The notes beneath the pieces were generated by a model. The model had not been told where the DNA came from, did not search any database, and saw only the letters and a list, made by a program, of their open reading frames with translations. DNA of 64,000 nucleotides from Cercospora beticola (taxonomy: Eukaryota; Ascomycota; Dothideomycetes; Mycosphaerellales; Mycosphaerellaceae): contig NC_088936.1 in the NCBI RefSeq assembly GCF_033473495.1, positions 4,588,001-4,652,000 of the forward strand, read 5' to 3'. The position numbers and the translations under genes are program-made. Below are positions 10,663-53,693 of this stretch, in pieces (position 1 is the stretch's first letter; each line of letters opens with the position of its first letter).

Positions 10663-10679
10663 CTATATAAGCTTCTTAA
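10663..10679. repeat. LINE target-site duplication, left copy (17 bp)
   Basis: CTATATAAGCTTCTTAA occurs here and again at 21851-21867. The Copia sequence resumes after the second copy, so the two mark the LINE insertion point. Variable duplications of this size are typical of target-primed reverse transcription. Confidence 0.75.
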
Positions 10680-13600: not shown

Positions 13601-14074
13601 CGAACGAACTCCTTAAGGCGTATACTAGTACGCTCGCTCTAGCTCTATCTAATATCTTCTCTATATATATAAGACTAGGCTTCTACTCCGAAACGTAGAA
13701 AGACTTAACTATAGTAGTCCTGCGAAAGCTCTAAAAACCGGACTATATAGAGGCTAAGTTATACCGACCGATCGCCCTACTTAATACGATAGTAAAGCTC
13801 CTTAAAGCTATTATAGCTCGATATATATTAGCTATCGCGGAAGAAAGAGACCTACTTCTAGTAATATAAATAGGAGCCCGACTAAACCGCTCTACTCTAT
13901 CCGTACTAGAGTTAATAACCGAATAGATCTATATAGTATAGAGCTACCTAAAGCCGAAAGTAGTATTAATACTCTACCTAGATATCTCTAGCGCCTTCGA
14001 TAAAGTCTTATATAACTACCTTATCTATATTCTATACTAGAAAGAATTCCTACTATAGCTAATATACTTCGTTA

Positions 14075-14304
14075 TATCGAATTATATTCTCGTAGGCACT
14101 CGTCGGATAGGTATAATATAGTAGAAGTAGAGATAATAAGTAGGAACTAACCGAGTTAATTATATTAGTTAGTTATAGGTTATATCTTACTCCTAAGATA
14201 GGTATTAGCTAGGTTATATAACCTAGTATTATATAACCTATATTACCTAATCCTAATCTCTAAAGTGTCTCTTAGAATATCTAACTAGACTATACTTTCT
14301 AATA
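14075..14304 (-). repeat. 3' LTR of the second Copia
   Basis: This 230-bp sequence is nearly identical to 19974-20203. It also matches 22728-22957 in inverted orientation, with more RIP-type differences. Confidence 0.85.
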
Positions 14305-17300
14305 CTTCTACTTAGGCTAGATAGTTTTCTGCCTATATTCCTATATTTAAATCTATCCCTAAATTATAATAAGTTATTAGGTGCTATAGTTATATAGTTA
14401 GAGCTATATACCTAATCTATCTTAGTTTAACTCTAAGGCCTAGTATTATAAAATAGGTATACTTAGAGGGTACTCCCTTTTTATTTTGTTTCTCCTCTAG
14501 GCTTTTTCCTTTTTAGACTATATATAGGTTCCTAGATCCTAATTACTTATTAAGTATAGCAAGCTACTTCTCCTATAGTATAACTCCTAGGCTTAGTTTT
14601 ATACGTATCGTAATATCTCTAATATTACAGTACGTATCTTTTGTTAATTATCCTAAGGTCTAGAGTTTAATCTATAGTTAGAGTATAAATCTTTTACCTT
14701 TCCCTATATAAGCTAGAGTTGTCTTATAAACTCCTAAAACTATAGCCTATTCTTTAGTTTAGTTAGACTATTAGCAACTATTTCTTTTATTAGAATATAT
14801 TCTACTATAACCTTCCTCTACTACTAGAGATATCTAATATAGTTATATATAATATTAATATATTTAGATCTCTTATAGGTATATATATCCTTAATAAGAG
14901 TTAAAGCTGCCTAATTGTCTCCTATAATTTATACTAGCCTTAGTTCTCTTACTATATTAGGATATACTTTTATAGTTAGTTAGAATAGGTATTCTCCTAC
15001 TAACTCTATATAGTCTATCTCCCTTAAGAGTACTACTAGGAACTAAGATTGCTTTATATATATATTTATAGCTATATACTTAGCTTCTATTATTAATATT
15101 ATAATAGACTTTTGCTTCCTACTTATCTAAGAAACTAGAGCTCTATAAAGGAAGAAGATACTCCTAAGGATTAAGACTCTATCTACTTTATCTATAGTAT
15201 AGTTAGAGTCTAAATATCCTATTAGGCTTCCTCTATTTCTTCTAAATATTAGTTCTAAGTCTTAGGATAACCTTAGGTACCTTACTAGTTTCTTTAGAGC
15301 TTATATATACCTCTTAGTTAGGTCTAAGATATATAAGCTTAACCTTCTAAGAGAGAAAGCAATATCTAGTCTTATTATAACTATAGGCTATATCTAGGTA
15401 CTAGTTTAGCTTTAGTACTCTATCTTGTTCCCTCTTTTATTATATAAGCCTATTAGTTTTAGGCTATTATAACTGTCTATTAGTAAGAGAGTTAGGTTAG
15501 CTATCTCTCTAGTTATTCCTAGCTTTATAAGGTTCTTCTAGATAAAGTATTCTTAATTAAGCTTTAAAGTTCTAGCTTGTCTATTTCTTATTAACCTTAT
15601 TCTAAGGATTTTCTCTAGTTCTCTAAGATCTTTAATTTTAAATACTTTGCCTAGCTGTTCCTTAAACTAAAGTATATCTTCTAGCTTTAGTACTATAATT
15701 AGAATATTATCTATATAGGTTAGGATTAGAATATTCCTTTCCTAGTAGATAAGAAGGTATAGGTCTACTTCTAATTATATAAACCTAATCTGTTTTAACT
15801 TTAAGATATAGAGTTTGTTCTAGTCTCTTGCTACTTGCTTTAGTCTATATAAGCTTTTTAGAATTTATAGGACTATATTAGGTAGAATCTTAACTCTTAG
15901 TAGTAGAATTATAAAGATTTCTTCTTAAAGTTTGCTCTTAGTAAATATATTATTTATATCTACTTAGTAGAGTTCTAGATCCTTCTTATAAACTATAGCT
16001 ATAAATACTCTTAAGGTATTATACCTAACTATTAGTATAAAGGTCTTCTAGAAATTAACTCTAAACTTCTAAGAGAAACCTCTTATAACTAGTCTTGCTT
16101 TAAACTTCTTAATAGCTCTACTAATTAATCTCTTTATATTAAATACCTACTTAGATATAATAAGGTTTGCTCCTTTAGGTAGAATAACCTTTATCTAGGT
16201 ATTATTACTTCTTAATATAGTTAGTTCCTTTTAGACTATATCCTCCTATATATATCTCTATTTAGGATCCTAAATTGCCTTTTTATAGGACTTTAGAATA
16301 GGTACCTCTTATTTCTATATAGAGACTTAAGGAGCAATTACTATAAATATAGACTCCTAAACCTCTAATAGGGCTTCCTAAATCTACTCTTATTCTTAGC
16401 CTTAGACTTAGCTTAGGAATGCCTTATAATACTTAGTACTAGGCTCCTCCTCCTATCTATATTCTCTCTATCTCTTCTAAAGTACTTATTTTATTACTAT
16501 ACTATAAGCTTTTAGCTCTAGGCCTAGTCCTTTATCTAAGATAGATCTCCTTCTCTTTTAGCTATAAGTTTAGTCTTAGTTCCTCTCCTAATCTCTATTT
16601 CCTTATAGGTCCTACTATATAATATTTAATCCTCTTGCTTTAGAATATAGTCTCCTACTAGTACTAGGACTAGCTTGTCTATTAACTTCCTAGCTTAGCT
16701 TAGGTAGTTTAGTAGTTCTACTTTTCTCCTACTAGAGTTATAGTTCTCTAGAGTTTTCTTCTTCTAGATCCTCTATTCTCTAGTACTCCTCCTTATCCTT
16801 TAGTAGAGGTAGTAACTATATAAAGAGTATTTAGCTAGGACTTATAGGTTTAGTTACTATAGCTATAAGTATAGTAGCTATAGAAGGTATAACTACTATT
16901 AGCTTCTTTAGAGGTCTACTAACTAGGTTTCTAATAGGTATACTACTTACTTAATTAAGCTTAGGAATATTTAGCTCTATATCTCCTTCTTTCTTATACT
17001 TAAACTAAGTAGTAGTATTATAGGCTTTAATAGCCCTTATATTAGGCTTCTAGAAGAGCTATATTTTAGTAGTATTAGGAATATACCTAATAAATATAGT
17101 ATCTTTACTTCTATTTATTAGTTTGTCTAATCTTATCTCTACTAGCTAGGACTTAGGATCTATATAGACTACTACTTTGCAACTCTAAACTCTAAAGTAT
17201 AATACTAAGGGTTAAATACCTAAAAAGGCTTCCTTAGGTAATACCTTAAATCTATTAATTTCTAGGCTATTAGGGAGGGAATTTCTAATAACTATATAGG

Positions 17301-19962
17301 CTACTAAGGCTTCTAGCTAGAATTTAATAGGTATATAGGTATCTTCTAGTATTGCTCTTATATAGTCTTTAGAAGTTTAGATTAACCTCTTAACTACTCT
17401 ATTCTAGATAGAGTTATATACTTTAGTTATATAGAAGGAAATTCTATATTCCTTCTCCTACTACTTTAGTATAGTAAGAAGCTCTCTTGCTCTATTACTC
17501 CTTATAATCTAGAGAGGATTTCCCGATTATAGCTTAGCTTTTACCTTCTAGTCTCTAAGGATACTTAGTATATCTTCTCTAGACTTTATTAGGAAAGTCT
17601 ATTTCTTTCTTAAGAAGTTATTAATAATCTTAAGCTACTATTTATATTCTAATCTTAAGATAGGTAAAGGACTATAGATATTAATAGAAACTAGAGATAA
17701 CCTTTATAGTTTCCTCTCGGTTTCTTTCCTTCTATATTTCTTTATCTTTACTAAGGAATATACTCTATAAGGTTAGTATTCCTTTAGAATAGGAATCTAA
17801 GCCTTTAAGTTAGATACCTTATATAGGTTTCTAAGAAGACTCTCTCTAAAATATATAAGTCTTCTATACTAAAGCTTCTACTATTCTTAGGTCTTTTCCT
17901 AGGCTTTAAAGATATAGGCTTTATTCTCTTATTTTTAATTAAAGTATAATATTATAAGCTCCTATAATATATTATTAATCTCCTTAATAAATAGTACTCC
18001 TCTTAATAGTTTTGTCTAGATAACTAGTTTCCTAGATAATAAAACAAGTATAAATTTTAGTAGTTAAATACTATACTACTAGCTAAATTAGCTCTAAGAA
18101 ACAAGATTTACTCCTAGACTAGGTATAAAGAGAACATTTTTAAGAATAATCTGCTTTTCTCTTCTCCTACCTATTACTATATCTCCTATATATATAGCTA
18201 TTAGATAGCTACCTCTAACTTTAATCTACTTTTTCCTCTAAAGAGGTTTTAGTTCTCTAAAAAGTAATTCTTAGTTAGTTATATATAATAAAGCGCAGGA
18301 GTTAAGTAGCTATCTTAATAGTATATACTTGCCTTTTGCTTCTATAGTTAAGTATATAACTTTATTAATATTATTATCCTCTAATAGAGATTAAGATACT
18401 TTAGATACTATAGAAGGTTCTATATCTTCTTAGGTAGTATATACCTTCTTAGAAAACTTCCTTAAGCTTTATTTCTTCTTAAGGGATTAGACTTTTAGGT
18501 TAAGTTTCTTTACTATTTCTTTTAATACTTCTCTATCTAGTAAAGATCTTCTCCTAAAAGTACTCTTTCTAGGTAGTATTCTTCTCTTCTCTACTCTATT
18601 AGCCTATTTTAAGTTAATAGTTCTCTTAGCTTTATTAAGGTATAGATACTTAGTAATACCTCTAAAATGTTCCTAGTTATATAGGTAATATTTTAGCTTT
18701 ATACTTTAGGTCTCTCTTCTCTTAGTAAATATTACTATTTCTTAGGACTAGTACCTATACTATATTAACTCCTCTACTTTAAGGAGTTAGAGGATTTCTT
18801 TAGAGTCTAAGTTCTTCTAAGCTTAGATAGTCTGCTTTATACTTTTATACTTAGCTAGAAGTATAAAGAGTAGATACTTAATCCTTATATTAGGAGTCTT
18901 ATAGTATAACTCTCTCTAGTTAATCTCTATAATCCTCCTCCTAAGGTTACTAAAGTAGACCTATAATTTCCTAATTATATCTCCTAGTTCTATCTTAAAG
19001 GTTATAAATTCTTAGATAATAGCTATTATATATACCTATTAGACTTTACTATATTTCCTATATAGCTTTGTCTAGATATTATATACTCTTGTCTTATCTA
19101 TTACCTTATCTTAGTTATCTATATAAAGACTTTCTATTAGAATATAGATTGCTTTTATATTATCCTTCTACTATTTTAGGCTAAACTCTAAAAAGGTAGT
19201 GCCTTTCCCTTTACTTAATAAAGCCTTAGATACTTTAGATTTAGCTAGGGTAGGTACTAATAATCCCTTTAAGTCTAAGATTATCTAGAAGATTTCTTTT
19301 CCTCTAAGTATATTCTCCTATAGCTTAAACTATAGTCTCTAGTTCTCCTTTATTAGGATTAGTATTCTCCTCCTATCTAATTTACTTATTAAATCTATTT
19401 CTATAAAATTAAATAAATAAATCTAAACTCTAGAAATATAAGCTCTTTTAATCTAATTAGTAGCTTCTAGATTTCTACCTTCTCTAGTTACTAAGACTCT
19501 TCTCTTTTAGCTAAGATATCTAAGGACTCTTCTCTCTTAGAGGAGTTAGTTAGGTTCTTAAGTAGAGAACCTCTAAAAGATCTACCTTCTTAGAAGAGTA
19601 CTACTAGCTAGTTCTAAGGTATTAGTAGTACTTAGTGCTTAGACCTAGTCTTATCTACTTAGATACTATAGTCTAAGGCTAATCCTTTCCTCTTTATACT
19701 CCTTTAGTATACCTCTCTTTTAAAGTAGAGTATACTTTACTAGGCTTTTCTCTATCTTACCTACCCTTTAGGAACTTCTAGTTTATAGCTAGGATCTTCT
19801 AAAGCTTCTAGGTAGTATAGATAGGATATACCTCTAGTCTCCCTTATACTCTTTTCCTACTTCTCTATCTAGTTAATACTATAGGTCCTATAAGAGGTAA
19901 TACGTATTACTTTAAGGATAAGAAGGCTAACTCTTACTACTTAGGGCCTCTCTATAAACCTA

Positions 19963-19973
19963 GGCTTATAACC
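19963..19973 (-). promoter_or_regulatory. Primer-binding site of the second Copia
   Basis: On the minus strand GGTTATAAGCC directly follows the 5' LTR. It shares ten bases with the priming site of the outer Copia, and both fit a RIP-altered complement of the initiator tRNA-Met anticodon loop. Confidence 0.6.
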
Positions 19974-20203
19974 TATCGAATTATATTCTCGTAGGCACTC
20001 GTCGGATAGGTATAATATAGTAGAAGTAGAGATAATAAGTAGGAACTAACCGAGTTAATTATATTAGTTAGTTATAGGTTATATCTTACTCCTAAGATAG
20101 GTATTAGCTAGGTTATATAACCTAGTATTATATAACCTATATTACCTAATCCTAATCTCTAAAGTATCTCTTAGAATATCTAACTAGACTATACTTTCTA
20201 ATA
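19974..20203 (-). repeat. 5' LTR of the second Copia
   Basis: This 230-bp sequence is nearly identical to 14075-14304. The copia-type priming site complement (GGCTTATAACC) abuts it on the left, which sets the element's orientation as minus. Confidence 0.85.
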
Positions 20204-21850
20204 TATTACGTTATTCCTTACGGACTATACGACGAGCCTCCGACTCGGCAACGCTATAAGTAGTAAACAAGCGACAATAACGGGAATCCTATAGAGGTCT
20301 ACTCTATCGCTAATCCTATTCCTATTTTTTGCGTCCGAACTCCTTCTATAGCTAGAGAGTAGAGAGACGATAGAGATAGAGTTCGTCGACGATATAGGAA
20401 TACTAGTAGTCGGTACTACGACCGAGGGAAACTATAAAAGGCTAGAACGGGCCTATAAGAAGTATTATACCTAGGTTAAGCGATATAGAGCTAAGTTTAC
20501 TCCCGACAAATACTAGCTAATCTACTTTATAAGGAAGAGAAAATAGAACAAAATAGTAAAGGTTACGATCGTAGAGTTTAACGGCGAACTAGTAGAATTA
20601 CTACGCTTCCTAGGAGTCTAGGTAGACGCGAAGCTTAACTAGAAGGCGAATATAGAGGCTACTATATAAAAGGTAAGAGCGACTACTAAGGTACTATAAG
20701 GACTCTTATAGTCTACGTAGGGAGCCGACCTGCTCCGTATAAGACAAATATATAATATAATTATATAAACTATACTTATATACGGCAGACCGGTATAGGC
20801 GATACGATAGCGAACGAACGTATAACTCTTTAAAGTCGCCTAGAACGTTAACCTACGCCGAATCGCCGGAGCCTACTATACTATACCGGTAGACGCGCTA
20901 CGCTACGAAATAGGTACTCTACTAATTAAAGACTACTTATACGAGAAGACGTCTCGATATATCTAGAAAATAGAAAACCTAATAGTAACGGAATATATAT
21001 AGCGTTAGTACTATAAGATTAGAAACTCGTACTACCGATAATATATAGAAGATCTCCTCTAAATAAGCAATACTTAACTCGGCCGTAATATATAGAAAGA
21101 AGCGCGGCCTAACGAAGTACGGAATAGATACGATACTCGATACTCTTAGTAGAAGGAAAGCTAGAGAACCGTAGTAGCCTAACGACGGGAGACAGACCTA
21201 TAGGCGCCCCCTATATAGTATATATAGACGAGAGGAGACGATAACCGATACCGGAAATATAAAGAGCTCTTCCGCTCCGAGAGTATAGCTATAATACTAC
21301 TCCGAATAGAGTATATCGGACTTAATATATACCTATATACGAGGAATATCCTAGAGTTCGATAGCCCGGTATACGAGTACGAAGCAAAACGATAAATAGG
21401 GAAATATATCCTACTCTAGTACCCGAATACGGTATAGAGTAGGAACGAGTTTATCCGATTAATAGGGAGTATAAATATATAGACTATACTATTAACTATA
21501 AGGGAGATAAAACTAGTAGTATAACGCCTAATAGTACTTAAGTGCCTCTAATAGTTCGTATAGGCAGAGGTAGAGCCGACGATAGAGTAGAGACGAGGGA
21601 GAGAAACGGGAAAAGAAGAGAGAGAGGAGAGCCTAGACCTAAGAGGGAATAGGTACTCGAGGATCGCTAATCTACGATCGTATATAACGATAACTCGATA
21701 CCTAAAGGCGCCGTAATAGGCACGATATACGAAGTAAACGGAAGATAGGTTTTTATATCGCGAGACTTTTCGCTCTCTAAATAAAGATATATAGATAGCT
21801 CTACGTAGACCTAAATAGGAGCCGGTTTAGGAATATAAGACTTTATCTAT

Positions 21851-21867
21851 CTATATAAGCTTCTTAA
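21851..21867. repeat. LINE target-site duplication, right copy (17 bp)
   Basis: This repeats the 17 bases at 10663-10679. Outer Copia coding sequence continues from here. Confidence 0.75.
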
Positions 21868-24203
21868 TCTACTATCTCTTATTAACGACTTACTATAAGC
21901 TTAGCTAGCGCCTATACTAGTAGCTACTACTATAGAGTTATTAGAAGATAAGTTTAAAGATACTAAAGTAATACCTCTACTCTAGCTACTAGTATAGCTA
22001 TATCGTTCTAAGCGTATCTATAAAGCGCTAAACCGTCCGTACGATTAATACGCTAAGTTCGCGATTCGCGATTAACGATTTAATTACTAATTAAGGTCGC
22101 TATATTAAGTTACTACTATAAGCGACTTAGCGAGCGTTTACTACCTCGATCTAGGAATTATAAACTAGCAACCTACTACCTAAGCTAAAGAGCTATAAGT
22201 AGGTAATATAGTTATTAGAATCTACTCTATAGTTAAAGGCTAAGATAGAAGAATTAGCCGCCTTAACTAAGAATAATATATAGACTACTATTCGTACTTA
22301 GTTAGGTATAAATATTATTAAGGGCCGCTAGGTTTATCGGCGTAAGTTTAACGCTAATAGTAAGCTATTATACTATAAGGTACGATAGGTTATTCGTAGT
22401 TTTACTTAGAAGGCTAGTATTAACTACGACGATACCTATACTACTATAGTTAAGCTATTATTATTACGACTACTATACGCTATACTCGCTTATTATAGTA
22501 TTAAATATAAGCAGTACGATATTATTACGGCGTTTCTTAATATAGCTATTAAGAGCTTAAAGATTTACGTCGAACTACTATATAGCTACGAGTAAGAAGG
22601 TATAGTATATCTCTTAAATAAGGCTCTATACGGTCTTAAGTAGTTACTACTACTATAGTATTAAGAATTATATAAAGTACTAAAAGCCTATAGCTTTAAA
22701 CTAATTAATAGTAATATCTATATCTTCTATTAGAAAGTATAGTCTAGTTAGATATTCTAAGAGATACTTTAGAGATTAGGATTAGGTAATATAGGTTATA
22801 TAATACTAGGTTATATAATCTAGCTAATACCTATCTTAGGAGTAAAATATAACCTATAACTAACTAATATAATTAACTCGGTTAGTTCCTACTTATTATC
22901 TCTACTTCTACTATATTATACCTATCCGATAAGTACCTACGACGATATAATTTAATATCTTCTAGTATATCGATAAGCGTTACTAGATTATTATCTATAT
23001 CGATAATATATTAATTATTACGTCTACCTATAGTAAGATTAACGAGGTAGTAGCGTAGCTAAAGGATAAATTTAAGATAAAAGAACTCGGTAACCTCTAT
23101 TACTATCTCGATATATATATTATTCGCGATAAGAAGAAGCAAACTATCTATATCGTTTAAGACGTATATACTAAGAAGCTAGTAGATAGCTATAGAATTA
23201 ACGAGCCCGCGCTAGCGATACTAATAGAGGCTCGTTACTATTATAAGAAGGCTCTAGACGGCTATACTACTATAGTATTAATTAAGGAAGTATATTAGAA
23301 GCTAGTTAGCGAATACCTCTAGCTCGCTATAAATACTTATATTAAGATAGTATACTATATTAGTTTGCTATATCGATTCCTTACTAATCTAATATAAGGT
23401 TACTACGATACTACGTTCTGCGTTCTTAGATACCTAGTTAGTACTAATACCTATAATATTAGCCTTAAAGTTAAGAGCCTTAACGCTAATATATATAACT
23501 TCTAGTTAGAAGGTTATATTAATATAGCGTAGGTAGATAGTTTAGACGATAGGAAGTTAACTAGTAGCTATATCTTCTTTCTAGTAAATATACTATTTAT
23601 ATAGAAGTCTAGTAAGTAGTCTATTATTACTATATTATTAATAGAAGTAGAATATATCGTATTATCGTAGATAGCTAAAGAGGCTATTACTATTATATAC
23701 TTACTCTATAACCTCTAATATAAGAGGCCTATCGAGCCTATTATACTATTCGAAGATAACGAGCTAGCTATTAAGATTAGTAGTAATAGTAAATCGAACT
23801 CTCGAACTAAGTATATTAACGTTCGTTACTACTTTATCTACGAGGCTATTAAGAATAGCTAAATTAAAGTTAAGTAGATTTCTACTAAGAATTAGAAGAC
23901 TAACGGCCTTACTAAGGCTCTTAATAAGATTAAGTTTAAGGCTTTTATCGAATAGCTCGAACTTACCGACTATACTATATTTATTTAGTAGCAAGCTAGT
24001 CTTAAGAAGGCAGCGTAGTACTAATAGTTAAATATTAAGAGGTATTTTAAACTCTCTTATTAGCCGTAAGAGTTTTATCGTATTTTTAGAGTTTCTAAAA
24101 GCTAGAACGGCTTATAGTACTATCTAAGCTAGCAGCCAAATCAGAGGCCATGTTTATAGTATGTTTATAGTATTAGGCGTAGCGAACAGCCGCCTAGGGG
24201 GTG
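21868..24203 (+). pseudogene. Outer Copia reverse transcriptase and RNase H remnant
   Basis: Near 22.33-22.45 kb the frame reads GRxVYRRKFNANSKLLYYKVRW, then INYDDTYTT, the start of Copia RT. Near 22.99 kb it reads IYIDNILIITSTYSKINEV, the YVDD block, and then KDKFKIKELGNLYYYLDI. Near 23.80 kb SRTKYINVRYYFIYEAI is the classic Copia RNase H end. A solo LTR (22728-22957) interrupts the RT. RIP saturation stops abruptly near 24.13 kb, and the last 75 bases before the LTR still contain CA and TG. An 11-bp tandem repeat (ATGTTTATAGT twice) lies at 24150-24171, and the purine tract AGGGGGTG at 24196-24203 touches the LTR. Confidence 0.75.
22728..22957 (+). repeat. Solo LTR of the second Copia family, opposite orientation
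   Basis: This 230-bp copy is the reverse complement of the LTRs at 14075 and 19974. It is flanked by perfect TCTTC duplications (22723-22727 and 22958-22962), so it was a separate insertion that later lost its interior by LTR-LTR recombination. Confidence 0.85.
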
Positions 24204-24385: not shown

Positions 24386-25364
24386 ATGGCAAGCAAGAAC
24401 AATTATCTTTACCAGTCCGTTCGAAATGAGCCAATTCATTACTCGTTCCGACAAACTCGCAGCAATCGATGGTATAAGGAGTGGTCCCTCACGATCTTAG
24501 TGGCACACATCGTTGCTATCGTGCTGTGGGCAATCTCAATCGCTTTGATGTATCAATACGCGGCGTTCAGGGCACAGAAAGCCGCAAAGTTCTGTGGCCA
24601 AATGACCTATTGTGAGTCCTCTTCGCTCAGATTTCCTCGTCTTTAGATGCCAACCAAACAAAGCACCCGCGCAAGAAGCCGTCGAGTATGAAGTTCGCGT
24701 CTTCTCTCAAAGCTCTACTGCAGAGCATGCCGACTATTGGGGTCCGCCGAACGCGGACAACAACCGGCTCTGGAGAGAGCTTTGGAACGGTATGTAGTTC
24801 ATCGCCAACGTTAAAAGTGAATCTAGCAATATGTACGACTCACGTTGATAATGGCAGTTGGCGGTGGGCAAGGAATTCTGAGAGAGCAAGCTTTACAACT
24901 TCCGAATCGAACTTCGACGCTTCCCCCGAAATGGCCGGATCTCTACTACGTTGATATTGATGTTTTCCATCAATTGCACTGCTTGGTCAGTAGCCACAAT
25001 CGAGTACACGTCCGCTGTGCATTAATCTGAACGTCTGTATATCTAGGATCACATCCGCCATGCAATAGCCAACGATAGCCACTATCTCCATTCTGCAGCG
25101 CTGCTAGGAAAGGGTCACATTTATCATTGCTTCGAAGCCGTACGCGAGTCCTTGATGTGTCACGCTGACATCTCTCCCATTGTACGGCAGTGGAGTCCTT
25201 TTGACAAGAAGGAGAAGATCCGTGGCGATGTCGTGCATACATGTCGAAACTTCTGGAAGATACATGCTTGGGGAAGAGAGCATGCGGTGGGCGCTGAGTG
25301 GGATGACGATCACGATCATGATGATCGAGAGACAGGCGAACAGGGCATCGGTCTCCTGGTGTAG
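24386..25364 (+). CDS. UstYa-family (DUF3328) oxidase, copy 2; four exons
   Basis: The exons are 24386-24611, 24664-24789, 24858-24985 and 25047-25364, with phases closing to 265 residues. Introns are 52, 68 and 61 nt and GT-AG. The first splice creates YSPAQEAVEYEVRVF, a family signature, which supports the chosen acceptor over a nearer AG. A single membrane segment covers residues 33-56. Family motifs are HQLHC at 155-159 and HIYHC at 184-188 followed by RESLMCHAD, the pair proposed to form the active or metal site. The C-terminus is unusual: an Asp/His-rich run (EWDDDHDHDD) that might bind metal. It is probably a membrane-anchored oxidase of the secretory pathway that modifies a peptide. 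Its upstream sequence beyond 48 bp is retrotransposon LTR, so expression may have changed. Confidence 0.88.
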
Positions 25365-27129
25365 CATGCGGCTGCTGTTGCGTGAGACAGATCCCAAAGA
25401 CTGCGGGACACCCACACACGGCGCGGAAACGATTTCCCAACGATGGTCGCTTGCATAGTGTTCCATCGAGCTTTGCAGCATCCTGTGTTTACATAAGTTG
25501 TTCAACTCGCTGTCTCATACCATGTCAGTTCTGTACGTTTTGGCGCAAGACTTGTAGTGATCGCGGTCAATTACTTGCGATCACGTTGCTGAGAGTGACT
25601 CTGAGGGACAGGCCATGGAAGTGTTATTCAGCACCTTTTCCGTGCCGAAAGATAAATCGATACTTGAGTTCATTCTATCCTGACCCAAACAGAGCCCTAG
25701 ATTGAGAAAAAGCTCTACTCTATCGAACAGCTGCCCAGAAGTGGCAATTGGCTGGATCTCAACCGAGGATCATGCATGAAGCATTCACGGAGAATCTGAC
25801 CTGTTCAATCCAGGTCTCCGCAGTTGTAGGTTATCAGGCGGGGAGTATAACACCAACATTGTCAAGCGAGTACCTGCTGGATCCCAGGTTCGCGTACGTA
25901 GGGGAGCCTGGAACTTCATTGCTTCTGCAACGGTGTGCAGCTGGAAAGGGTTGGGTTCCACACGGATTAAACACTAAGTCAACTCATGGTCAAGTTAGGC
26001 GACTGGTCTCGACTGTCGAGTATGCAAGCTCTCAAAGACCCTACAGATACCGACCCACGTGCGAGAGATATCCTAGGGATGGTGTGAGCACTCGTTTAGA
26101 AGCATAGGAGTGTATCAGCAAGGACAAGGTAGTGTTGGCATGTCTTGTCGATATGTGCAGACCGCAAGACGGTTCTAGACTATTGAGCGCGTGGTTCAAA
26201 CGATCGATCGAGCTAACACAGAGGGCTCTCCAAATAGCCAAACGTGATACATTTGGAGTACGTACGACAACAAGATCGTACACCGACCCAACCATCATCA
26301 GTTGTAGTCGTAGGCCTGCATGCGAGGATCAGAGTCTGAGTCGTGCCGCATAGCATACCTGCTTGATCGCCCCTGGATGCAGCTTGGACTGATTTGGCCG
26401 TATGACAGACGGGTCTGCAGCATTGAGCAACCCAGAGGTGAGCCCCAATGCATGAGCCATGATCGTTAGGGTATATAGACTAGCTCACCGGCGTCATGGC
26501 CATCTATGCTGCCTCCTACGAACCTCAACGCAATGCACCAATGAGATCCCAAATTTGAAGCACCTGCAAATAATGACCTCCAGGGTAAGTCGAACTCTCG
26601 ATTCATGTTATGCCAATCTGGGAACTACTACGAATCAAGCTGCTCTGTCCTCATTGCTGGAATATCTTCTTCACTTCTCTGTGCATACTCTCACATGGGC
26701 ATCCCTGTTACCAGGGTCGTTGAGCACTTATTCCTTCAAGCACGGGCCGATTGCACAATGATCTTTTCAGCTGAATCGTCTGAATGGGCGCGGAGAGGTC
26801 TCTCCCTTGACGCATAGATCCTATGTTCATCATTAACCCCTCCTCGCCGCCGCGAGGTCAGTCGAGTGTCTGGCCACGTCTTGGCATTCACCCAATCGGA
26901 AGTTTAGCAGATCACACGTGTGCCCAGCTACCCATGATCAACAATTCACTTGGCAGTGGTCCATACATGGTGCTCTTAGAGCTCAAGTCTTGACAGTGGT
27001 AGGAGCAAAACGTACAAAGTCGAAGGTAGCGGCAGTTATTCGAAAGGCTTGACAGACCAGCAATCGATTCAAGTCTCACACAACTGCCATATCGTTTTCT
27101 CAGAAACTTCCCCGAGACAACAATAGAAG
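25365..27129. other. Intergenic region between UstYa copy 2 and the candidate precursor; no gene recognised
   Basis: About 1.8 kb separates the two genes. Frames up to 119 codons exist (for example plus 25748-26107), but none shows a domain, signal peptide or membrane segment I recognise. The composition is ordinary and not RIP-mutated. The part just left of 27130 should hold the precursor promoter. Confidence 0.45.
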
Positions 27130-27490
27130 ATGCAAATAATATATCTCATCCCTTTGGTCGCCTTCGTCGCTCAGGCACATCCACTTGGTACGGATGGATA
27201 CGGTCGATATACACAGAAAAGCCACTGACCAGCTACAAGCTATGCCTGAAGAGGCAAAGAATGGCAAAGCCGTCAAGGCCAACGAAGAAAGCTATCAATG
27301 GGCGAGCGACGGTGGCTATGTCTCATTCTACGCGAAAGACAAGAAAGCCATTGCTGAGAAGGCCAAGCGCGAGAATGACAAAGAAAGCTATCAATGGGCG
27401 AGTGACGGCGGCTACGTGTCGTTCTATACGAACGACAAGGAAGCCACTGGTGATAAGTACAAGCGTGAGGATGAAGTTGAAGGCTCTTAG
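27130..27490 (+). CDS. Candidate RiPP precursor: signal peptide plus two Kex2-flanked core repeats
   Basis: The exons are 27130-27187 and 27240-27490 (52-nt GT-AG intron with ACTGAC branch sequence), giving 102 residues. Exon 1 encodes a classic signal peptide (MQIIYLIPLVAFVAQA, then HP). Exon 2 encodes two units, 27284-27370 and 27371-27466. Each contains the same 15 residues, ESYQWASDGGYVSFY (36-50 and 68-82), a charged spacer, and a terminal Lys-Arg (62-63 and 94-95) suited to Kex2 cleavage in the Golgi. This plan matches precursors of dikaritin-type RiPPs such as ustiloxin and asperipin, and two UstYa-family genes are nearby. The core has Trp and three aromatic partners available for cross-linking. 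A pheromone precursor is the main alternative, but the repeats lack the usual W-x-x-x-x-G-Q features. Without the intron the two parts lie in different frames, so the splice needs RNA support. Confidence 0.72.
27284..27370 (+). repeat. Precursor repeat unit 1
   Basis: This 29-codon unit ends in AAG-CGC (Lys-Arg). Over the 15 core codons it differs from unit 2 at six bases, all synonymous. The following six spacer codons already contain three amino-acid changes. Confidence 0.75.
27371..27466 (+). repeat. Precursor repeat unit 2
   Basis: This 32-codon unit ends in AAG-CGT (Lys-Arg). It has the same 15-residue core as unit 1, and a short acidic tail follows to the stop codon. Confidence 0.75.
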
Positions 27491-28411
27491 TTATCCAGGC
27501 GAACGACTTTTAGAAGAGCTCTCGTTGGTACATAGTCCGCATTCAACTGCGGCTCATTTTTCCTCCTGTTTTGCTGCACACTTCCAGTGATGACAATGAG
27601 ATCAAAAGGTGATCTGACGGGATGACACAGATAGTTCACACATATTTGGGAGCGTTCCCAACATATGGAAACATAATGTTCTCGACTGTGCTTAGAAGCC
27701 GTTATTCAACAAACATTTGAGTTTCTGGAGTCATAACGTTCAGGGCCAGCCTATGTCGATCGTTCATAGCAGTCAAAACTTGAGAGATCAAAGAGTTACT
27801 ATTGATGTGCAATTGTATTCCTTTCGAACTTTCGGATAGTGCATGACTCCAAACGGCTAAAAAGCGCAACAATGCACTAATCTCTCTTGACAGCACCAGG
27901 ACAGACTCATGATATTTTGAATGAGTAGATGCGGCAATACTGATTATGTGGTCTACTTTGTACCAGAACCACCAACTTTGTAGTTGCGACAAATGTTTGC
28001 AGCTCGGCGAATTCGTTCCTTGCCCGAAACACCGTGCTCAGCATCGGTGAAGCCGAAACAGGCTAGAGGTGGACACAAGCCCGACGCGACGAGCAGGTTG
28101 CAGCACATACAACGAATCACAAACTACGAGTAACATCATGGTGAACAGTGCCTCGGCGGAAGCACACTATTTGAGCACAATACCACAGTGCGAGAAGCAC
28201 CCAATGTGCCGAAGCAACATTCACTACGCTGAAACACTGCGTGTATAGAACAATGGCATTGTCTGGAGCGGACCAGCCATTCACAGGCGCATCCAAGAAT
28301 CTTCCAAGCATACAAAGTTCGATCTCCATCTAAGATCTCGAGTGCATATCTCTTCTCACAAACCTTGCAACGCCATTTCCACTGTCGCCATCCTACTACG
28401 ATGTGAAAAAA
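27491..28411. other. Intergenic region downstream of the precursor
   Basis: No frame with recognisable protein features was found on either strand. It probably contains the precursor's 3' UTR. Confidence 0.45.
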
Positions 28412-29474: not shown

Positions 29475-30915
29475 TCAACCGGTAAAAGGAGTCTTTGGCG
29501 CATCAAGTCCTACAAGGGACGGGAAAAAGGTGTAGACCACCAGGAAAGCACCGATAATGGTTGCTGCGAGTACCAATCCCTTGGCGCGTGCAGGATTGTT
29601 TTGACGCATTTGCGCAAATGCGAGCTGGGAATCGCGAAGGCCATTCTTGACTCCGTCTGGGCCGAGCTTGTACCAGACAAGGCCGCCAAGAGCGATAGAG
29701 TAGCCGAAGAATTGCAGAGGAGCGACCGGGTCCCGGAAGATGACCATTGATGCGACAACCAAAAGAATGTCCTTGAGGACACCAGCGAGTGTGAGGACGA
29801 CGGCAGACGTTTTGCCAATCTACTCATATTAGCAAGCGCAAAATAAGAGTGCAGATTTTGACTTACCAAGAAGACGACTGAGACGTTCAAGCCGAAAGCG
29901 ACTGCAGCGTTGGCGATGAGAACGAACACGCCCACGTTGTAGATATCGCTCATGCCCATCTTTGGAAGTTCGATAAAGAGTGTGAAGAGGCCGTTGATCA
30001 CAGCGCACGCTGGCGCGTAATAGTAAAGCGAGACCAGCGGGTCCATCTTGAATTCAGGTGCAGACAAGATGCGCTGAACCATGACAAGGCGGATTGCTTC
30101 GAAGATGATGCCAGCCATTTGAACTAGAATACCAAGTCAGTAACCAAGCATAGAGCTGATGTTCAGCTGCCAAACATACTGATGAAGCCAACCATGACGA
30201 ATTTGATCTCGCCGTATGAGGCAATCACAACACCAACCATGATAGCAGAAACGTTGGCGAGCTTCTTCATGTCTGGTGGAGAGATGCCGAAAGCCCATGT
30301 GGCGAGCAGAGTGGCGATGGCATTGGAAGCCTGAGATGTCAGCTTTGGTCAACTCAAATGTAGACCGCTTGATTTACCTTCAGCATCTGAATGAAAGAGA
30401 CACTCAAGTAAAGGTAGGCAAAATTCCCGCAGATCAAGCTGAAGCTGAAGAACAGGCCGATAGGCAAGATAGCTCTCGTGTAAGTCTCACGGGTCATGGG
30501 CACTTTGTGTCGTGAATCGAGGACAGTTGTGAACTTGGCGAGTAGTTGTGTGACTACTGTAGCGAACGCCATGTGCCATGTTGTCAAGAAGAGAGGAAAT
30601 TCTAGTGCATGTCAGTGAGATAGAGCTGTCAAGCTGCCAGCTCTCAGCTGTTTCGTACCGAACTTGGCCGTGCTCAGGACCCATTTGTTGAAGAGAATGA
30701 CACTTCCGGACAGCGCGATCCAGAGTCTGATGAAGCATTAGAAGCGTTTCTTGATGTTCTTGCTTTGTCTTGGTACCCGCATACGCGATATAGAAGGCCG
30801 GGTGGAGGTCATTCTTTGGGGCCTCCGGCTTGGCAGGCGGAGGCGCTTGAGCCTCGCCGCCCTCGAGCTTGCGGTCGTCGTCGCCGGACATCCTGATGTC
30901 GTTCTTGGAAGACAT
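29475..30915 (-). CDS. Triose-phosphate/nucleotide-sugar-type transporter (TPT/DMT superfamily)
   Basis: The six exons (minus) are 30915-30785, 30726-30659, 30601-30378, 30330-30180, 30123-29867 and 29819-29475. Phases close to 391 residues and introns are 47-58 nt. A short acidic, proline-rich cytosolic N-terminus precedes a conserved core: HPAFYIALWIALSGSVILF, FNKWVLSTAKFEFPLFLTTW, SFIQMLKASNAIA, GEIKFVMVGF, FEAIRLVMVQRIL, FKMDPLVSLYY and IGKTSAVVLTLAGVLKDI. About ten hydrophobic segments are visible. These blocks are characteristic of fungal TPT-domain transporters of the drug/metabolite superfamily, which usually sit in Golgi or ER membranes and exchange sugar nucleotides or phosphorylated metabolites. 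The substrate cannot be read from sequence. The gene lies between the RiPP and siderophore loci and shows no clear link to either. Confidence 0.85.
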
Positions 30916-31596: not shown

Positions 31597-34500
31597 TCAA
31601 TGCTGGGCTGTTAGCTGTTGCAGCTCTCCAACAAACTCTCCCGTCATGCCAATGGCCTCATCCAAGCCCATCATGTCCTCCAAGCAGAAAATGCCGATAC
31701 TCAGCTTGCTATCCTTCACCGCGAGCTCGACATCCACAGCATGCTGATATGCTTCATTCACCTCGAATACCCGCAGCTCTGGCGGCACTTCGAACGACTC
31801 CGGTTTCTGTGGCTCATGCACACGCGCCACTTCTTCGTTCCACTCATCGTTGGCATCAGTGATGGCATTGTCGCCCGTAACCTGCTCATCTTGTTCGGGC
31901 ATCTTCAGGAAGTTGACGAACGTGTCAATCTTCACCCCAGTCCAGCGGTAAATCTCTGCCAAGCTCGCAGACGAGTTTGCAGCTGTGGTGATCTGGCGCA
32001 GATCTTGGTCGATCTGCTTCGCGCTGTCGAGAATGCTGGACTTTGCGGGTGCTTTCACTCGCAGCGGCAGAAGATTCAACGTTGGTGCTGCAAGTTGGTC
32101 AAGCTCTGGTAGGTGCGTGCGATTGGCAATGTAAATGCCAATCACCACGTCAGTCGTGTCTTTTCCGCTCTGTACAGCGTGCTTGCTGTAGACCTTGGCG
32201 TAAGCGGCGAAGAACAGAGCCTGTGTAGAGACGCCCGCGCTTCTCGCCTGACGTTCCAGATCGCCACAGGAAGCGAAAGCTGCAGGCTTGAAGATTTGGA
32301 CCTTCTTCGTTGCATGTTCGTTGGGCTTCCGGAGCTTTGCTTGTTGGGTGCCTTGTAGGTATTCTGTCCAGAACTGCTGACTAAATTTCAATGATCCTGA
32401 GCTGAGGCCGAGTGCCAGGTAGTCACTAAAGTCTACGGCGGGCTTCGAAGGAGCGGCTCCTTCCAGGAAAGAGCCCAGACGCTGCATCAAAAGTGGCAAA
32501 GACACTGCATCGTACAGCGCGTGGTGAATCTGGAGCTGCAAGTCGAAGCCATCGTCAGTCTGCTTTGCAAGCAGGTGCGCGAAGGGCTGTTGTTGCGATG
32601 CTGGCATTACATCGTCCAGGTGAAGGTTATTCGTGACTGTCCTGTGCACAATCTGGATGACAGGCATGCCCGGCGCTTTCGTTTCGCAGAATTGTGTCCG
32701 AAGAATAGCAGTCTCGGCTACAACTTGCCTCCAAGCCTCGCGGAGGTCATCGACTGACTTCTGCGTCCTGACGTGGTATTTGAATGTCGGGTAGAAGAGC
32801 TCACCACCTGTCTTTTGCCAAAGTGAGAACATGTATAGCTGTCCAGCGGTTGCCGGCAAAATGCTCTCAATATCATCAGCAGTGACTCCAAGGCTTTGTT
32901 GAACAGCTGCTCTATCAATGTTGCTCAAAGCGTTGGCAATCACATTCTGTGGAGCCTCTGCGTGATTGGCAGCAGGTTCTTTTTGGCCTACGAGTTGTGC
33001 CATTGCCTTTGGTGTCTGCGCTCTAACGAGGTCGCTCACAGACAATTTGATCGATTGCTTGCGTAGTAGCGAAGCTACCTTGATAGCTGAGATGGAATCG
33101 ATGCCGATTGACTGGATTGTGGCATGCGACGGAACGTCTTCCATTGGCATCTTCGACACTTGAGCAAGAGCTGATCGGATGGCATCGATCACTGCGAGAT
33201 CGTCCTCGGATTCCTCGTCGGAGTCGTCGATGATGTATTGCTCGCGAGTGGTCTGTCTGGAAAGTGCTTCAGAGCGCAGCGTGAACGAGGGCAGTCCGCA
33301 GATGCTGACATCGTTGCCAGAGAAGTCCACAGTGGGCCGGTCTTGGTCGGATGCCAGGAAGCTCAATACTGTATCGAAGCGCTCTAGCAGCAATTGCGTT
33401 CCCTCGGCATCCAAAACAGAAGACTTGCAAGCAGCTCGGAGCACAAGTTTGTCGCCGACAGCCTCTGCCTCGACAGCGACAGGATATTCGACATTGGCAT
33501 CGGCAATAGCAGATTCGTACAGCGCGTCTGTTGCTTCGTCGTTCATCTCACCTCTGCTTTGATACATGAACAAAGTATCGAACAGCCCTTGCTGTGGTCG
33601 GGATTTGCTTGATTGGAGCAGGTCGGCACAGGCAGCCTGGATGTGTCGCAAAGGCGTCCTCTGGTGCTGTCTCATTGCATTGATATTGTCTTGCACATCG
33701 CGCAGCATTTGAGAGGCAGATCCATGGAGTGTCACTCTCGCCGGAACAGTGTTCATGGTCGGGAAAAGTACTTGCTCTGCTTCTTCGCTATCGCGACAGG
33801 CCAGCACGACGCCGTAGATCACATCAATGTCTTCCAGATATGTGGCGAGCAGCAGCGCCCAGGATGTCTGGGCGAGCGATTGTAGAGACACGCCCAAGCT
33901 CGAACATAGTTTGCGCGCTTCAATGCTGGTAAGCGTGGCATTCCTTTCGGCCCGATGTGTTGTCGGAGTCTGAATGGCCATAGTGTTGCTGAATCTGGAC
34001 AATTTGGCACCTGCGAGGTTGTGTCGCCAGAACGCGAGGGACTCGTCACTAGTGGCACCCAGAGCTTGCTCAATGGCTTCATCGTAGCTTGGGCGCTGCT
34101 CCAAGGCTCCATTATAAGCTGCAGTGATGTCGGCATGCAGCAAGCCAATACTGTGTCCATCATATTGTGCGTGAGACAAGGAGAGTACCAGGTACTGCTC
34201 GAGCTCGATTGTGACAATCGCCAGACGGAGTGGCGACGCCTTTGAGAAGGACTGGCGGACGTCCACTTTGACAGCCTCGAAATAGTCGTTGAGGTCATCC
34301 AGGCTGCTTACCTCGATCTGGTCGAAGTGAAGAGAAGAAGTTTTGAGGACGACTTGAGCAAAAGTGGCATCGATATCGGGATCAGAAACGTCGACAAATG
34401 CAGTCCGGAGGATGGGCGAAGCGTCATACACTTGCTGCCATGATTTCTTCAACCGCTCAATGTCTGTATCTTGCGACAAGTGCAGGACATCAGAGTTGAA

Positions 34501-37500
34501 GTACTCTTGAAAGTCTGAGCGGATCATTTCTGCAATCAGTGCTTCCTGACCTGGGGCGGCCGGGATGATGCGTTCGATCTCTTGTGTCGTCTGGGTCTGA
34601 ACCTGTTGAAAGATCGCTTGGAGCTGTCCTTCCAACTTGGAGAACTTGCTCGCAACATTGGATTTCTCGTTCGCGTTGACAGTACTCTGGAGATTGCCCA
34701 GGATCTTTGGAATTGTCTGAGCACTCAGGATCTTGCTGACAGGTACTGGAATCCCAGCCTTTTTCATGCGTGCCGCAAGCTTGACTGCGTCGATACTGTC
34801 CAGGCCAAGGGTGAAAATTGTGACATGCTCTGTGACATCTTCAGGAGTACAGCCAGCAACCTCCGCGATGATCTCTCGTAGCTGAGTAGCGTCTGCTGTC
34901 CACTCAAAGTCGGAAGTTCCGTTGACTTGAGCAGAAAGGTCCTGTTGTTGAGCCGGTGTGGCACTAGTACTGCTCCGGGAGATGGTGAACTTGTCTGAAA
35001 TGCTTCCTTCAATATTGTCGGCCATGCACTGCAAAGCTACTTCGAATTTGTCAAGGAGCTCTGCCAATGCGTCGTTTCTGGCGACTCCAGCCTGCGTCGC
35101 CACAGTAACTTCAGCAGTTCCTGAAGAATAGTGGTCGATGTCAAAGGCGAGAGGATATTCGGCTGGCGTAGATGATGGCAGCAGATGCAAGATGTGATCC
35201 GCTTGGTTGTCCGTCTCATCTTCCGGACGTTGGTAAACGAAAAGCACATCGAAAATCGGATCGCTCGGATGGCGGCGACAGAGCTTGCGAACCTCACGCA
35301 GAGAAGTGTGTTGGTACGGTAGCACTGTAGTGTTTGACTGATGGCACCGCTGCAGCAGTTTCGACCAATTGTCTGTGGGGTCGACATCGATACCATAGGG
35401 CAACGTATTGAACATGGGTCCGATGATGGCGTCCGCATCTTCGAAGTCGATCGACCTGCCGGAAGCCACGACGCCGTAAGTCTGAGTCTGCGGCGCAAAT
35501 TGATGTATAGCAACGGAGAACGCTGCCTGGAAGACCGCTTGGTGAGACACGCCTAGACCCTTCCTGATCTTTTCAATTGACGACGTCGATGCCAATGTTT
35601 TAGTGGCCTTGACTCCATCCGAAGTCGAATCTGGTACGTTTTGTACGAGTGGTGTGAAGTGAAAGCCCTTCATACGTTGCTCCCAGAAGTCCTTTGCATC
35701 GTTGCGTTTACACAATGGACCGTATGGCAGAGCTTCGATGAAGCTCGGCCCGAAGTCAACGCCCAGCTGGGTAGCATAACTCTGCTCGAGTTTACTGATC
35801 ATCAAATCCCAAGAGATTCCGTCGTATAAAGCATGGTGTGCATAGAAAGCCAGTATGGTTTCCGAAGGCGAGCGGACGAGAACCATGTCAAAAGGTCTGC
35901 TGACCTCGTGGTCCGCGAGTGCTTCCCATTTCGCTTTCGCTTCCGCCAAAGTTGGCTGCATCTTGCTCCCATCTTCCACTTCCTGAGTATGTATGGGAAG
36001 ATCGGCCTCGCGCAGAACGACCTGGGCAAAGCCCTCTTCTGTCCGAATGAAAGAGGTGCGCAAGATGGGGATTTCTGACTGCAGATATGAAAGAGCCTCA
36101 TGCAATCGATCTAGGTCGACCTCAGACAGTCGATAGTGGAAAGCATTGAAATAAGGCTTCTGCGAGCCCTTCAATGAGTCAGCAAGCAAACCCTCCTGCA
36201 GAGGCGTGCAAGGTGCGACAGATTCGATATTCGACACGTTGACGGACAGTGTCTGGGCTGCAAGGCTGCGGTGCCGCTGAGTGAATGCAGAAATGCTCAG
36301 TTGTGCCTGCCTCACCGCATTCTTCTCCAATTGGTTCTTGCTGTCCTGGCTCGAGATTGCCGTGGCCAGACCACTGACTGTGGGGTTGCTCATTATGGTA
36401 GCAACGCTGGCATTCTCGAAGCCACTACGCTTCAGCAGTGTAGCCAAGTTGATGGCAGAGACCGAAGACAGACCAAGAGAGAAGACATTCGACGACGCGC
36501 TGATGTCCTTGGTATCGATTGAGAGCAATCGGCTGAGAGCCTTTGCGATCTTGCGCTCACTCGATCGCAGAGGACGATCTGTTCCCTGACTTCCTTTCAG
36601 TTTCTGGAGCTCTTGAGTCGAAAGCGATGAGAAGAGAGCCACTAGACTCTTGGCGTCAACTTTGTTGTTCACAGTCAGAGGAAGGCGAGAGAGCGGTATG
36701 ATGTGCGTGGGCACCATGTACCCTGGCAATCGATCGCGACAAGCTTGGTCTGCTGCAGCCACAATCTCGGTCGCTTGTCCGGATTGTGCAATATGCAGAT
36801 CTCGACTTCGAGCTTCGCTGTCAATGATGAAGGAGACGAGCATCTCTCGGTCACCCTTCACCACAAGCGAGGCGACATCTGATATGCCAGCGTGTGCGCC
36901 TTTAATAACAGCGTCGATTTCGTCGATCTCAAGTCTCTGTCCTCTCAGCTTGGCTTGTGTGTCTTTGCGGCCAGTGAACGAGAAGGAGTCATCTGCGAGG
37001 AGCCGGACCAGATCTCCGGTTCTGTATACGCGCTCGCCCAGACGTTCAAGGTATGGGAATGCCTTCGCGGTGAGATCCGGCCTGTTCAGGTAGCCTTTGC
37101 CTACAAGCTTGCCTGAGACGCAAAGTTCGCCGACTGCACCGCGCATTACGGGCTGATCGGTCTCCGGAGCGAGAACGAATGCGCCAACATTGTCGAATGC
37201 AGATCCGATGTTGGATGGCTTGGCTTCTGGACCGATGTGAACATTCATGGTGCAGCCGATGGTTGCTTCAGTCGGACCATAGCCATTGTAGATCGTATGG
37301 TATGGACCCCAAGCATCAATGATCTCTTGTTTGAGTGCTTCGCCGCCCGTAATGAAGACGTGGTTGTGCAGGCTTGGCACTTCTTCTGGTTTGAGAAGGC
37401 GAGCAAGAGACGGCGTGAGATCGATGTGCGTGATATTGGCTGCGGTAATGAAGCCTGGCAGATCTTCAAGGACCAGGTCGCGAGGAGCACCGACCATGGT

Positions 37501-52482: not shown

Positions 52483-53693
52483 GTCTAACGCGACCACAGC
52501 CCACCCAGTCCAGCCTTCTCGCTTCGCTTAGGGGCCCAAGGTGTTGACAAAAGTACTGATTGTCATTTATCACCCAATCGTGGTGGGTCCATTTTTGAAT
52601 CTCGTCGGCAGGCCACAAAAGCGATATGGACTTGATCGCTACAGTAACCTCTATCTACTGTGCAGGTCTTAGGACTATACACGTCGTGTCACGCCTTCAG
52701 GGTAGGGGTAGAGAACTGTGTTTCCTGATGAGAAATTGCCAAATTGGGCTTAGCCGAGATTACTACTTTTGCCAGCCTCTCTGGAGCCCGCTCAGCACAC
52801 GAACAACGCCCCGTTCTCTTGAATGATCCCTGCATGCATCATCATCTCTGAAGATCCTCGTCCTGCATGCGCGTTCTGCCTGCGACAAATGACGCTAAGC
52901 AAGCGCCGCAACGTCACGAACGGCCAGTCGTGATTGGAGCTCATGCAACAGGAAAAGAAAAAAAAATTAAGCCGGTGCGTAGACGGCGTGGAGTCACTAC
53001 TGTACGGCTGGCGTGCGCTGACGGAATGGGCTTGCAGGCAGGGTGGCAGAAAACGGCCTTTCCCTTGCAAACTTGTCCCTTCTTTTGCGCCATCCGCTCA
53101 TCCTCCACCCCTCCTGCTGGTTTTCCTCGGGCGCGCTCGGCGACACAAGACAGCACAGATGATCAGATTAGATTGTATTGTGGGAACAGGATCATCTTGA
53201 TCCGGAGAATCTCCGCCCGCCGCGTGGGCAAAATGTATGTCACTCGAGTTACGCCATAGACTTTTTTTGTTTGGTTCGAAACAAACGAACGAACCGACGG
53301 GGGCTTGTTGCTGCGTGTGTCTGCCCACGTCCGCTCGATCTCAGCTCACGGATCTGCTGAGCATTACTACTGCGGCCCTCACTCATCCCTTCGTCGGCTC
53401 TTTCTTGTACCTGCCGGTTTCGGGCGTGCTAGTAAACCGAAAGGTCCTGGCAACTTACCTTGGCCCCATACTGAAGCAAGCCCCGAGCTGCGTGCTTTGG
53501 AATAGGCGTGGGAGGAGAAAGTCAATCTATTACTAGAGGAAAGCGAGAGCACTCTTTCCCTTGACAAGTTGAAGTACCTTTTTTTGTGGCACATCGTACC
53601 CATCTTTTATCCTTCCTTGTCTTGTCTGTCATCAACCACCAGCATCACACTTGTTTGTCTGGTCCACTCAAACAATCGAAGACACTTTCCACT

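Follow-up and report, generated by a model that had tools for sequence, protein, structure and literature searches.

The question raised by this locus is whether a short gene carrying two repeat units encodes the precursor of a RiPP, and which of the UstYa-family (DUF3328) genes in its neighbourhood act on the product. The window, meaning the whole 64,000-nucleotide stretch of DNA that was analysed from Cercospora beticola, the fungus of beet leaf spot, is part of a contig of 5,229,751 bases in a genome of 36.07 Mb. We consider it quite probable that this is a minimal dikaritin-type RiPP locus, comprising a two-copy precursor and the nearer gene, UstYa-1, probably together with a second gene, UstYa-2.

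Splice enumeration, in which the chosen solution was one among many GT/AG combinations, joined 27130-27187 to 27240-27490 on the forward strand and gave a product of 102 aa that begins with the ATG at 27130. A protein database search returned a public hypothetical protein of C. beticola, CB0940_06512, that was identical to this spliced product. The first-pass annotation had made its case depend on a splice joining a signal peptide to the repeats, and because the public gene model is identical, a precursor without splicing is unlikely. Removal of the intron fuses MQIIYLIPLVAFVAQAHPL to the repeat region. The N-terminus, MQIIYLIPLVAFVAQA, was strongly hydrophobic in a hydropathy analysis and, by inspection, ended in an AXA-type site; it was on hydropathy and this motif, not on a dedicated predictor, that the signal peptide was judged. 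A Pfam search found no match to the precursor. The features of the gene were as follows.

27130-27187, forward strand: precursor exon 1, with the signal-peptide-like MQIIYLIPLVAFVAQA at 27130-27177 followed by HPL (splice enumeration, identical CB0940_06512, hydropathy)
27188-27239, forward strand: precursor intron of 52 nt, with donor GTACGG, branch-like CTGAC and acceptor ACAAG (splice enumeration)
27240-27490, forward strand: precursor exon 2, containing the pair of repeat units plus the stop codon (repeat search, splice enumeration, public protein)
27287-27331, forward strand: core copy 1, ESYQWASDGGYVSFY (codon comparison; invariant in 3/3 aligned proteins, the window's own included)
27365-27370, forward strand: Kex2-type KR site closing unit 1 (kept in 3/3 aligned proteins)
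27383-27427, forward strand: core copy 2, ESYQWASDGGYVSFY, with 6 synonymous differences from copy 1 (invariant in 3/3 aligned proteins)
27461-27466, forward strand: Kex2-type KR site closing unit 2 (kept in 3/3 aligned proteins)

The units form a tandem 96-nt repeat (27282-27377 and 27378-27473) with 82% identity between copies, and encode ESYQWASDGGYVSFY-AKDKKAIAEKAKR and ESYQWASDGGYVSFY-TNDKEATGDKYKR, with ENDK between them. The signal-peptide-like start and the two Lys-Arg-ended units sharing one aromatic segment, as first described, are therefore present. The core itself needed adjustment: the aromatic segment was real, but the invariant stretch spans 15 residues and encloses the 13-residue core proposed earlier, and no dibasic site stands ahead of the first copy. 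Between the core copies 6 of 45 bases differed, and across the 15 codons compared all 6 differences were synonymous and none non-synonymous, an outcome reached in 6 of 200,000 simulated sets of 6 core changes. The 16 codons after the core, by comparison, carried 1 synonymous and 10 non-synonymous changes between units (codon 32 of the repeat unit, with 3 differences, being left out of this flank count), and Fisher's exact test computed from the core and flank counts gave ~0.0006. This codon pattern indicates that the core residues are strongly constrained and the flanks unconstrained. Gene conversion was rejected as the cause of core identity, because the silent differences would have vanished as well, and they persist.

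Homologues of the precursor were sought among 5.8 billion proteins clustered at 90%, in a search that needs shared 5-residue words, so that precursors with other cores would escape it. Three proteins were recovered among 8 candidates at E up to 10, including the window's own, whose cluster held 2 member sequences. The others were CBER1_04280 from C. berteroae (82% identity) and a protein on a 7469-bp contig (P0004; 84% over 80%). By inspection, the latter resembles intron read-through, its translation fitting the same splice signals as the window intron. In both homologues the 15-residue core was identical and occurred twice, both KR sites were kept, and the flanks varied. We did not find the core outside these 3 proteins in this one word-based search of a database clustered at 90%, and the remark that the core was unfamiliar thus held up, with no match beyond close relatives; nor did own-genome searches find a second precursor copy.

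Pfam searches (PF11807, cut-off 25 bits) confirmed both UstYa genes named in the first-pass annotation, though only one of them is close by.

24386-25364, forward strand: UstYa-1, 265 aa, exons 24386-24611, 24664-24789, 24858-24985 and 25047-25364 (PF11807, 132.3 bits)
5916-7175, reverse strand: UstYa-2, 344 aa, exons 7175-6893, 6819-6504, 6445-6420 and 6325-5916 (PF11807, 70.9 and 60.9 bits in two exons)
8001-24000, no strand: AT-rich repeat island between the UstYa genes, 27-41% GC in 1-kb steps (GC scan; outside the pathway)

UstYa-1 is complete and lies 1.8 kb upstream of the precursor, whereas UstYa-2 lies 17 kb beyond UstYa-1 on the far side of the AT-rich island, which puts it about 20 kb away from the precursor; the membership of UstYa-2 in the locus is probable, and less certain than that of UstYa-1. 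UstYa-1 has an N-terminal hydrophobic helix and the motifs HQLHC and HIYHC, while UstYa-2 carries HLIHC and HFYHC, so that both genes possess the two HxxHC motifs expected of DUF3328 proteins (PMC12048977, in the part cited here). In a 23-row UstYa alignment the first motif kept its H, H and C in every row, and the same three residues of the second motif were conserved to at least 90%. The UstYa-1 orthologue of C. berteroae, CBER1_04281 (P0005; 91%), gave an AlphaFold model with one long N-terminal helix (pLDDT 75.9, pTM 0.64). When this model was searched against PDB folds, 17 matches came up to E 10, of which the best stood at 1.3 and none reached 0.001; the 23-row profile matched no sequence in the PDB at E up to 1.

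The next relatives of UstYa-1 were a fragment (70% over 52%) and then a protein from Grosmannia clavigera (44%); several basidiomycetes followed at 33-41%, and Aspergillus and Fusarium were among those ranking further down. Beyond Cercospora the best named relatives thus belonged to Grosmannia and basidiomycetes, not to other Dothideomycetes. This patchy spread may reflect gene transfer, or simply what a word-based search can reach. The closest own-genome paralogue was at C5:4530994-4531654 (42-53% identity by exon matches). For UstYa-2, relatives were present in C. berteroae (CBER1_04282; 93% over 72%), Zymoseptoria tritici (P0032; 66%), Sphaerulina musiva (48%) and C. kikuchii (41%), and the neighbourhood of the Z. 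tritici gene may carry a precursor with another core. As the proteins searched were grouped into clusters at 90%, neither UstYa gene showed an identical C. beticola record under its own name.

The arrangement recurred in the relatives. CBER1_04280, 04281 and 04282, corresponding to precursor, UstYa-1 and UstYa-2, bear consecutive tags and are all on contigs of 152460 bp, and the third genome has the precursor homologue P0004 and a protein that starts with UstYa-1 exon 1 (P0010; 83% over 75 residues to CBER1_04281), both on contigs of 7469 bp. The precursor and UstYa-1 are apparently linked in 3/3 genomes, a linkage judged in the two relatives from locus tags and contigs of equal size, not from sequence read across them. 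Homologues without a nearby UstYa gene, which had been named as grounds for abandoning the reading, were not seen, because the precursor and a UstYa-1 orthologue are on equal-sized contigs in both other precursor-bearing genomes. The linkage may be mere shared ancestry, since C. beticola, C. berteroae and the third genome are close relatives. The consecutive C. berteroae tags are compatible with a gene-free island there too. In the window, the island contains a repeat family, probably a RIP-damaged transposon: its piece 11000-14000 had 18 further near-full-length genome copies at 90-93%. One of these copies lies ~1 kb from a UstYa group on C8.

Besides UstYa-1 and the precursor, no Pfam family rose above the cut-off in 43 ORFs between 24.97 and 31.38 kb, and the earlier statement that no tyrosinase, methyltransferase or peptidase is visible was borne out within this set. 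These ORFs were stop-to-stop frames of at least 70 aa, from which short exons could escape, and the set excluded frames that overlap exons of UstYa-1 as well as three ORFs bordering the NRPS. Pieces of a TPT-type transporter (29475-29819 and 30354-30611) fell below the Pfam cut-off of 30 and are a hint only; other sub-threshold matches (several at E 0.006-0.1) were left unused. Farther downstream, 31597-55283 is a siderophore-type neighbourhood.

31597-45171, reverse strand: NRPS frame of 4524 codons; a further adenylation domain lies upstream (3 A, 6 C and 6 PCP domain matches in all)
47622-51735, forward strand: ABC transporter, sitting with the siderophore genes
53565-55283, forward strand: L-ornithine monooxygenase

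Four other readings were weighed against the dikaritin-type one. That the repeat ORF is no gene but a frame open by chance has a negligible probability: the ORF is short and without a Pfam match, but its gene model is public and identical, two homologues share the invariant core, and core changes that are all synonymous argue strongly for a gene. Almost as hard to credit is the proposal that the UstYa genes serve the neighbouring NRPS and not the peptide. The large NRPS frame is close by, and UstYa genes are known in some NRPS pathways (PMC12048977, in the part cited), but the precursor is nearer to UstYa-1 and apparently linked to it in relatives. Moreover, the NRPS, ABC transporter and ornithine monooxygenase together have the layout of a hydroxamate siderophore locus, a pathway not known to us to use a UstYa enzyme, and it was on this gene set that the NRPS linkage was rejected. 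The precursor might also yield a linear, unmodified Kex2-processed secreted peptide, such as a pheromone-like signal or small effector, with the UstYa genes acting elsewhere, and this we regard as unlikely. The precursor plan fits linear Kex2-repeat proteins, and the 13-residue core, aromatic at both ends and with a Gly turn, is of a size that we take to be in the alpha-factor range, which favours a linear peptide. Linear Kex2-derived peptides are also known (PMC9769878, in the part cited). Against a linear product stands the apparent linkage of UstYa-1 in all three genomes. In the cited part of the survey of Umemura 2020 (PMC7329392), pheromone-type precursors had no DUF3328 neighbours save for three exceptions, and Tyr occurred in 65.6% of UstYa-linked precursors vs 38.2%, which suits the Tyr-bearing core found here. 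The usual lack of a DUF3328 neighbour does not hold for the present gene, with UstYa-1 at 1.8 kb, and an alpha-pheromone precursor was rejected as the likelier reading on this adjacency, the linkage and the survey's neighbour statistic.

Of better standing, and a real if lesser possibility, is a variant of the dikaritin-type reading in which only UstYa-1 belongs with the precursor, as at the one-UstYa asperipin-2a locus, and UstYa-2 is unrelated. The 17 kb of mostly repeat DNA between the UstYa genes speak for it, as do the 17-21% identity of UstYa-2 relatives to the UstYa-1 orthologue in the 23-row alignment and the occurrence of a UstYa-2 relative in Z. tritici (66%), where the word-based search found no precursor. 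Against it are the consecutive tags 04280-04282 of C. berteroae and the average of 1.7 DUF3328 genes at known loci (PMC7329392, in the part cited).

Under the preferred reading, a minimal dikaritin-type locus, the signal peptide would take the 102-aa precursor into the secretory pathway, with predicted cleavage between AQA and HP, and Kex2 would cleave after both KR sites. Membrane-anchored UstYa-1, probably with UstYa-2, would oxidise the aromatic ESYQWASDGGYVSFY segment in the lumen and form one or more side-chain cross-links, most likely at Tyr, perhaps at Trp or Phe. General peptidases would then trim the charged flanks, and the product would be secreted. Expression, Kex2 processing and cross-linking of the precursor are what we infer. 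Calculated [M+H]+ values were 1542.6536 for YQWASDGGYVSFY (1540.6379 minus 2 H, 1538.6223 minus 4 H), 1758.7282 for ESYQWASDGGYVSFY (1756.7125 and 1754.6969, respectively) and 3467.4822 for the second Kex2 product without KR (3465.4665 and 3463.4509). UstYa proteins reportedly also form dehydro-amino acids, and a JACS paper of 2025 is said, by its title, to describe a copper-dependent DUF3328 macrocyclase. Hydroxylation, chlorination and transacylation are further activities of the family (PMC12048977, in the part cited), and this range of chemistry counts against the preferred reading.

Across the genome, PF11807 gave 72 exon matches, or 34 loci at 8-kb spacing. Twenty loci lay in larger regions whose flanks measured 1.0 kb or more. 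At 6 of these 20, the present precursor included, there was an intact-looking repeat ORF of Kex2 type, a lower bound because the flanks start at 1.0 kb. A candidate required a dibasic pair, of any kind, at the same place in the repeat copies; UstYa-1 and UstYa-2 are two of the 20 loci, and the precursor was credited to UstYa-1 only. Among the 14 loci outside the larger regions, ten were scanned with 1.5-kb flanks only and had no counted candidate, and 4 were left out. The count covers UstYa regions only and gives no rate for regions without UstYa genes. The repeats of the other five candidates, QFYPVYG(V/A)N, PYAYYNNYKDA, EVPYEVGLTYADYGRE, KPDYQYLV and QGYPDGYYEDEAYVPP, were all Tyr-rich.

C7:42394-43248 (L037 1095-1949), reverse strand: candidate precursor with ~16 KR-bounded repeats QFYPVYG(V/A)N; UstYa matches at C7:45089-47452
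C8:1146879-1147208 (L039 9280-9609), forward strand: candidate precursor with three units QYIG(T/V)PYAYYNNYKDA; UstYa group at C8:1139942-1145101
C9:621077-621481 (L042 5178-5582), forward strand: candidate precursor, repeats EVPYEVGLTYADYGRE..KAEKR, flanked by UstYa matches at C9:618998 and 622007-622656
C9:90329-90829 (L043 3530-4030), reverse strand: candidate precursor with five units DVAKPDYQYLV and KK/RK separators, no KR; UstYa at C9:91494-92045
C9:454678-454953 (L044 8679-8954), forward strand: two-copy candidate precursor, ARQGYPDGYYEDEAYVPP..KR twice; UstYa at C9:448075-453667

The two-copy candidate on C9 (QGYPDGYYEDEAYVPP) has the same plan as the present precursor with another core, and a signal-peptide-like frame lies upstream of the C7 candidate. 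Near UstYa at C6:1284726, an AT-rich tandem repeat (L034 6250-6900) has, in one frame, KR-bearing, Tyr-rich units and looks like a decayed precursor; it was not counted (L034/L022), as a stop codon interrupts each unit. A frame near UstYa at C3:570928 (L017 1-500; C3:569428-569927, reverse strand) has a signal-peptide-like start and four AQAYGNEKALR.. repeats, and is perhaps a precursor cleaved by a different protease; with no dibasic site in its four repeats, it was not counted either. Rows at L037, L042 and window positions 27030-27587 were set aside as wrong-frame readings of counted places, and L002/L046 was rejected as a duplicated Cys-rich secreted protein whose dibasic sites are not aligned.

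The present locus is thus one of six intact-looking candidates of its kind in C. beticola, and the high surprise value first assigned to it was not supported: such loci are known and very diverse, and this genome holds five more intact-looking candidates. The locus is a fresh addition to a known, highly diverse family, with a core seen nowhere else in one search. It offers a defined UstYa substrate, a long Trp-containing core with no other tailoring enzyme in sight, and therefore a clean case for what UstYa proteins do alone. Doubtful, if conceivable, is the bolder idea that the UstYa pair builds a large, multiply cross-linked peptide of 13-15 residues with a Trp bond, and that two-copy precursors form a class, missed by a three-repeat cut-off, distributed among the Dothideomycetes that infect plants. 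A precursor with two copies, too few for either survey, can be a real gene on which selection acts, and fungal RiPP loci may therefore be underestimated in number.

A literature search within one library found no paper on the present locus and none on dikaritins of Cercospora; the known systems compared here are taken from the cited parts of their sources. DUF3328 is the class-defining dikaritin enzyme (PMC12048977), and here such a gene (132.3 bits) stands 1.8 kb upstream of a precursor that combines a signal peptide with repeated cores separated by dibasic sites. A Ding-type dikaritin cluster has five gene kinds, including a tyrosinase and a methyltransferase together with a transporter or peptidase (PMC12048977), none of which exceeded the Pfam cut-off in the 43 ORFs at 24.97-31.38 kb. 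Umemura 2020 reported 7878 Kex2-repeat precursors (KEPs) in 1345 of 1461 strains, 22% of them with DUF3328 among the 15 nearest genes, most often as the next gene (PMC7329392). The KEPs of Le Marquer 2019 and Umemura 2020 share the general plan of the present precursor, but both surveys required at least 3 repeats between Kex2 sites, and for this reason the present precursor, which has two, and the two-copy candidate on C9 fall below their cut-off.

The plan recognised in the first reading as that of dikaritin precursors, namely a signal-peptide-like start and Kex2-type units with an aromatic core, accompanied by UstYa genes, is indeed here. Ustiloxins (UstA/UstYa/UstYb) and phomopsins share the signal peptide, KR-bounded core repeats and at least 2 DUF3328 genes, but have 16 or 8 repeats with 4-6-residue cores (PMC6514808), unlike the two repeats found here, with their Trp-containing core of 13-15 residues; the present locus also differs in that no tyrosinase, methyltransferase or peptidase was found among its 43 ORFs. 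Both points, a core longer than the 4-6 residues of ustiloxin, phomopsin and asperipin cores and the lack of another visible tailoring enzyme, count against the dikaritin reading. In asperipin-2a (aprA/aprY) cyclisation is likewise ascribed to a DUF3328 protein without a tyrosinase; its core, the Tyr-rich FYYTGY, is unlike the present one, and its locus combines a single DUF3328 gene with a transporter and a reductase (PMC6514808). AprY, its sole DUF3328 protein, is essential and the proposed maker of both rings (PMC6514808), and a locus with UstYa genes as sole tailoring enzymes is therefore plausible. Epichloecyclins (gigA), from a fungus that lives in association with plants, likewise derive from a short secreted precursor with Kex2-type repeats and have a proposed Tyr cross-link, but have four repeats, nonapeptides and a different core. 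Finally, in Venturia inaequalis, a Dothideomycete plant pathogen with nine dikaritin clusters in one genome, repeat precursors likewise sit beside DUF3328 genes, a likeness by description (PMC9632046).
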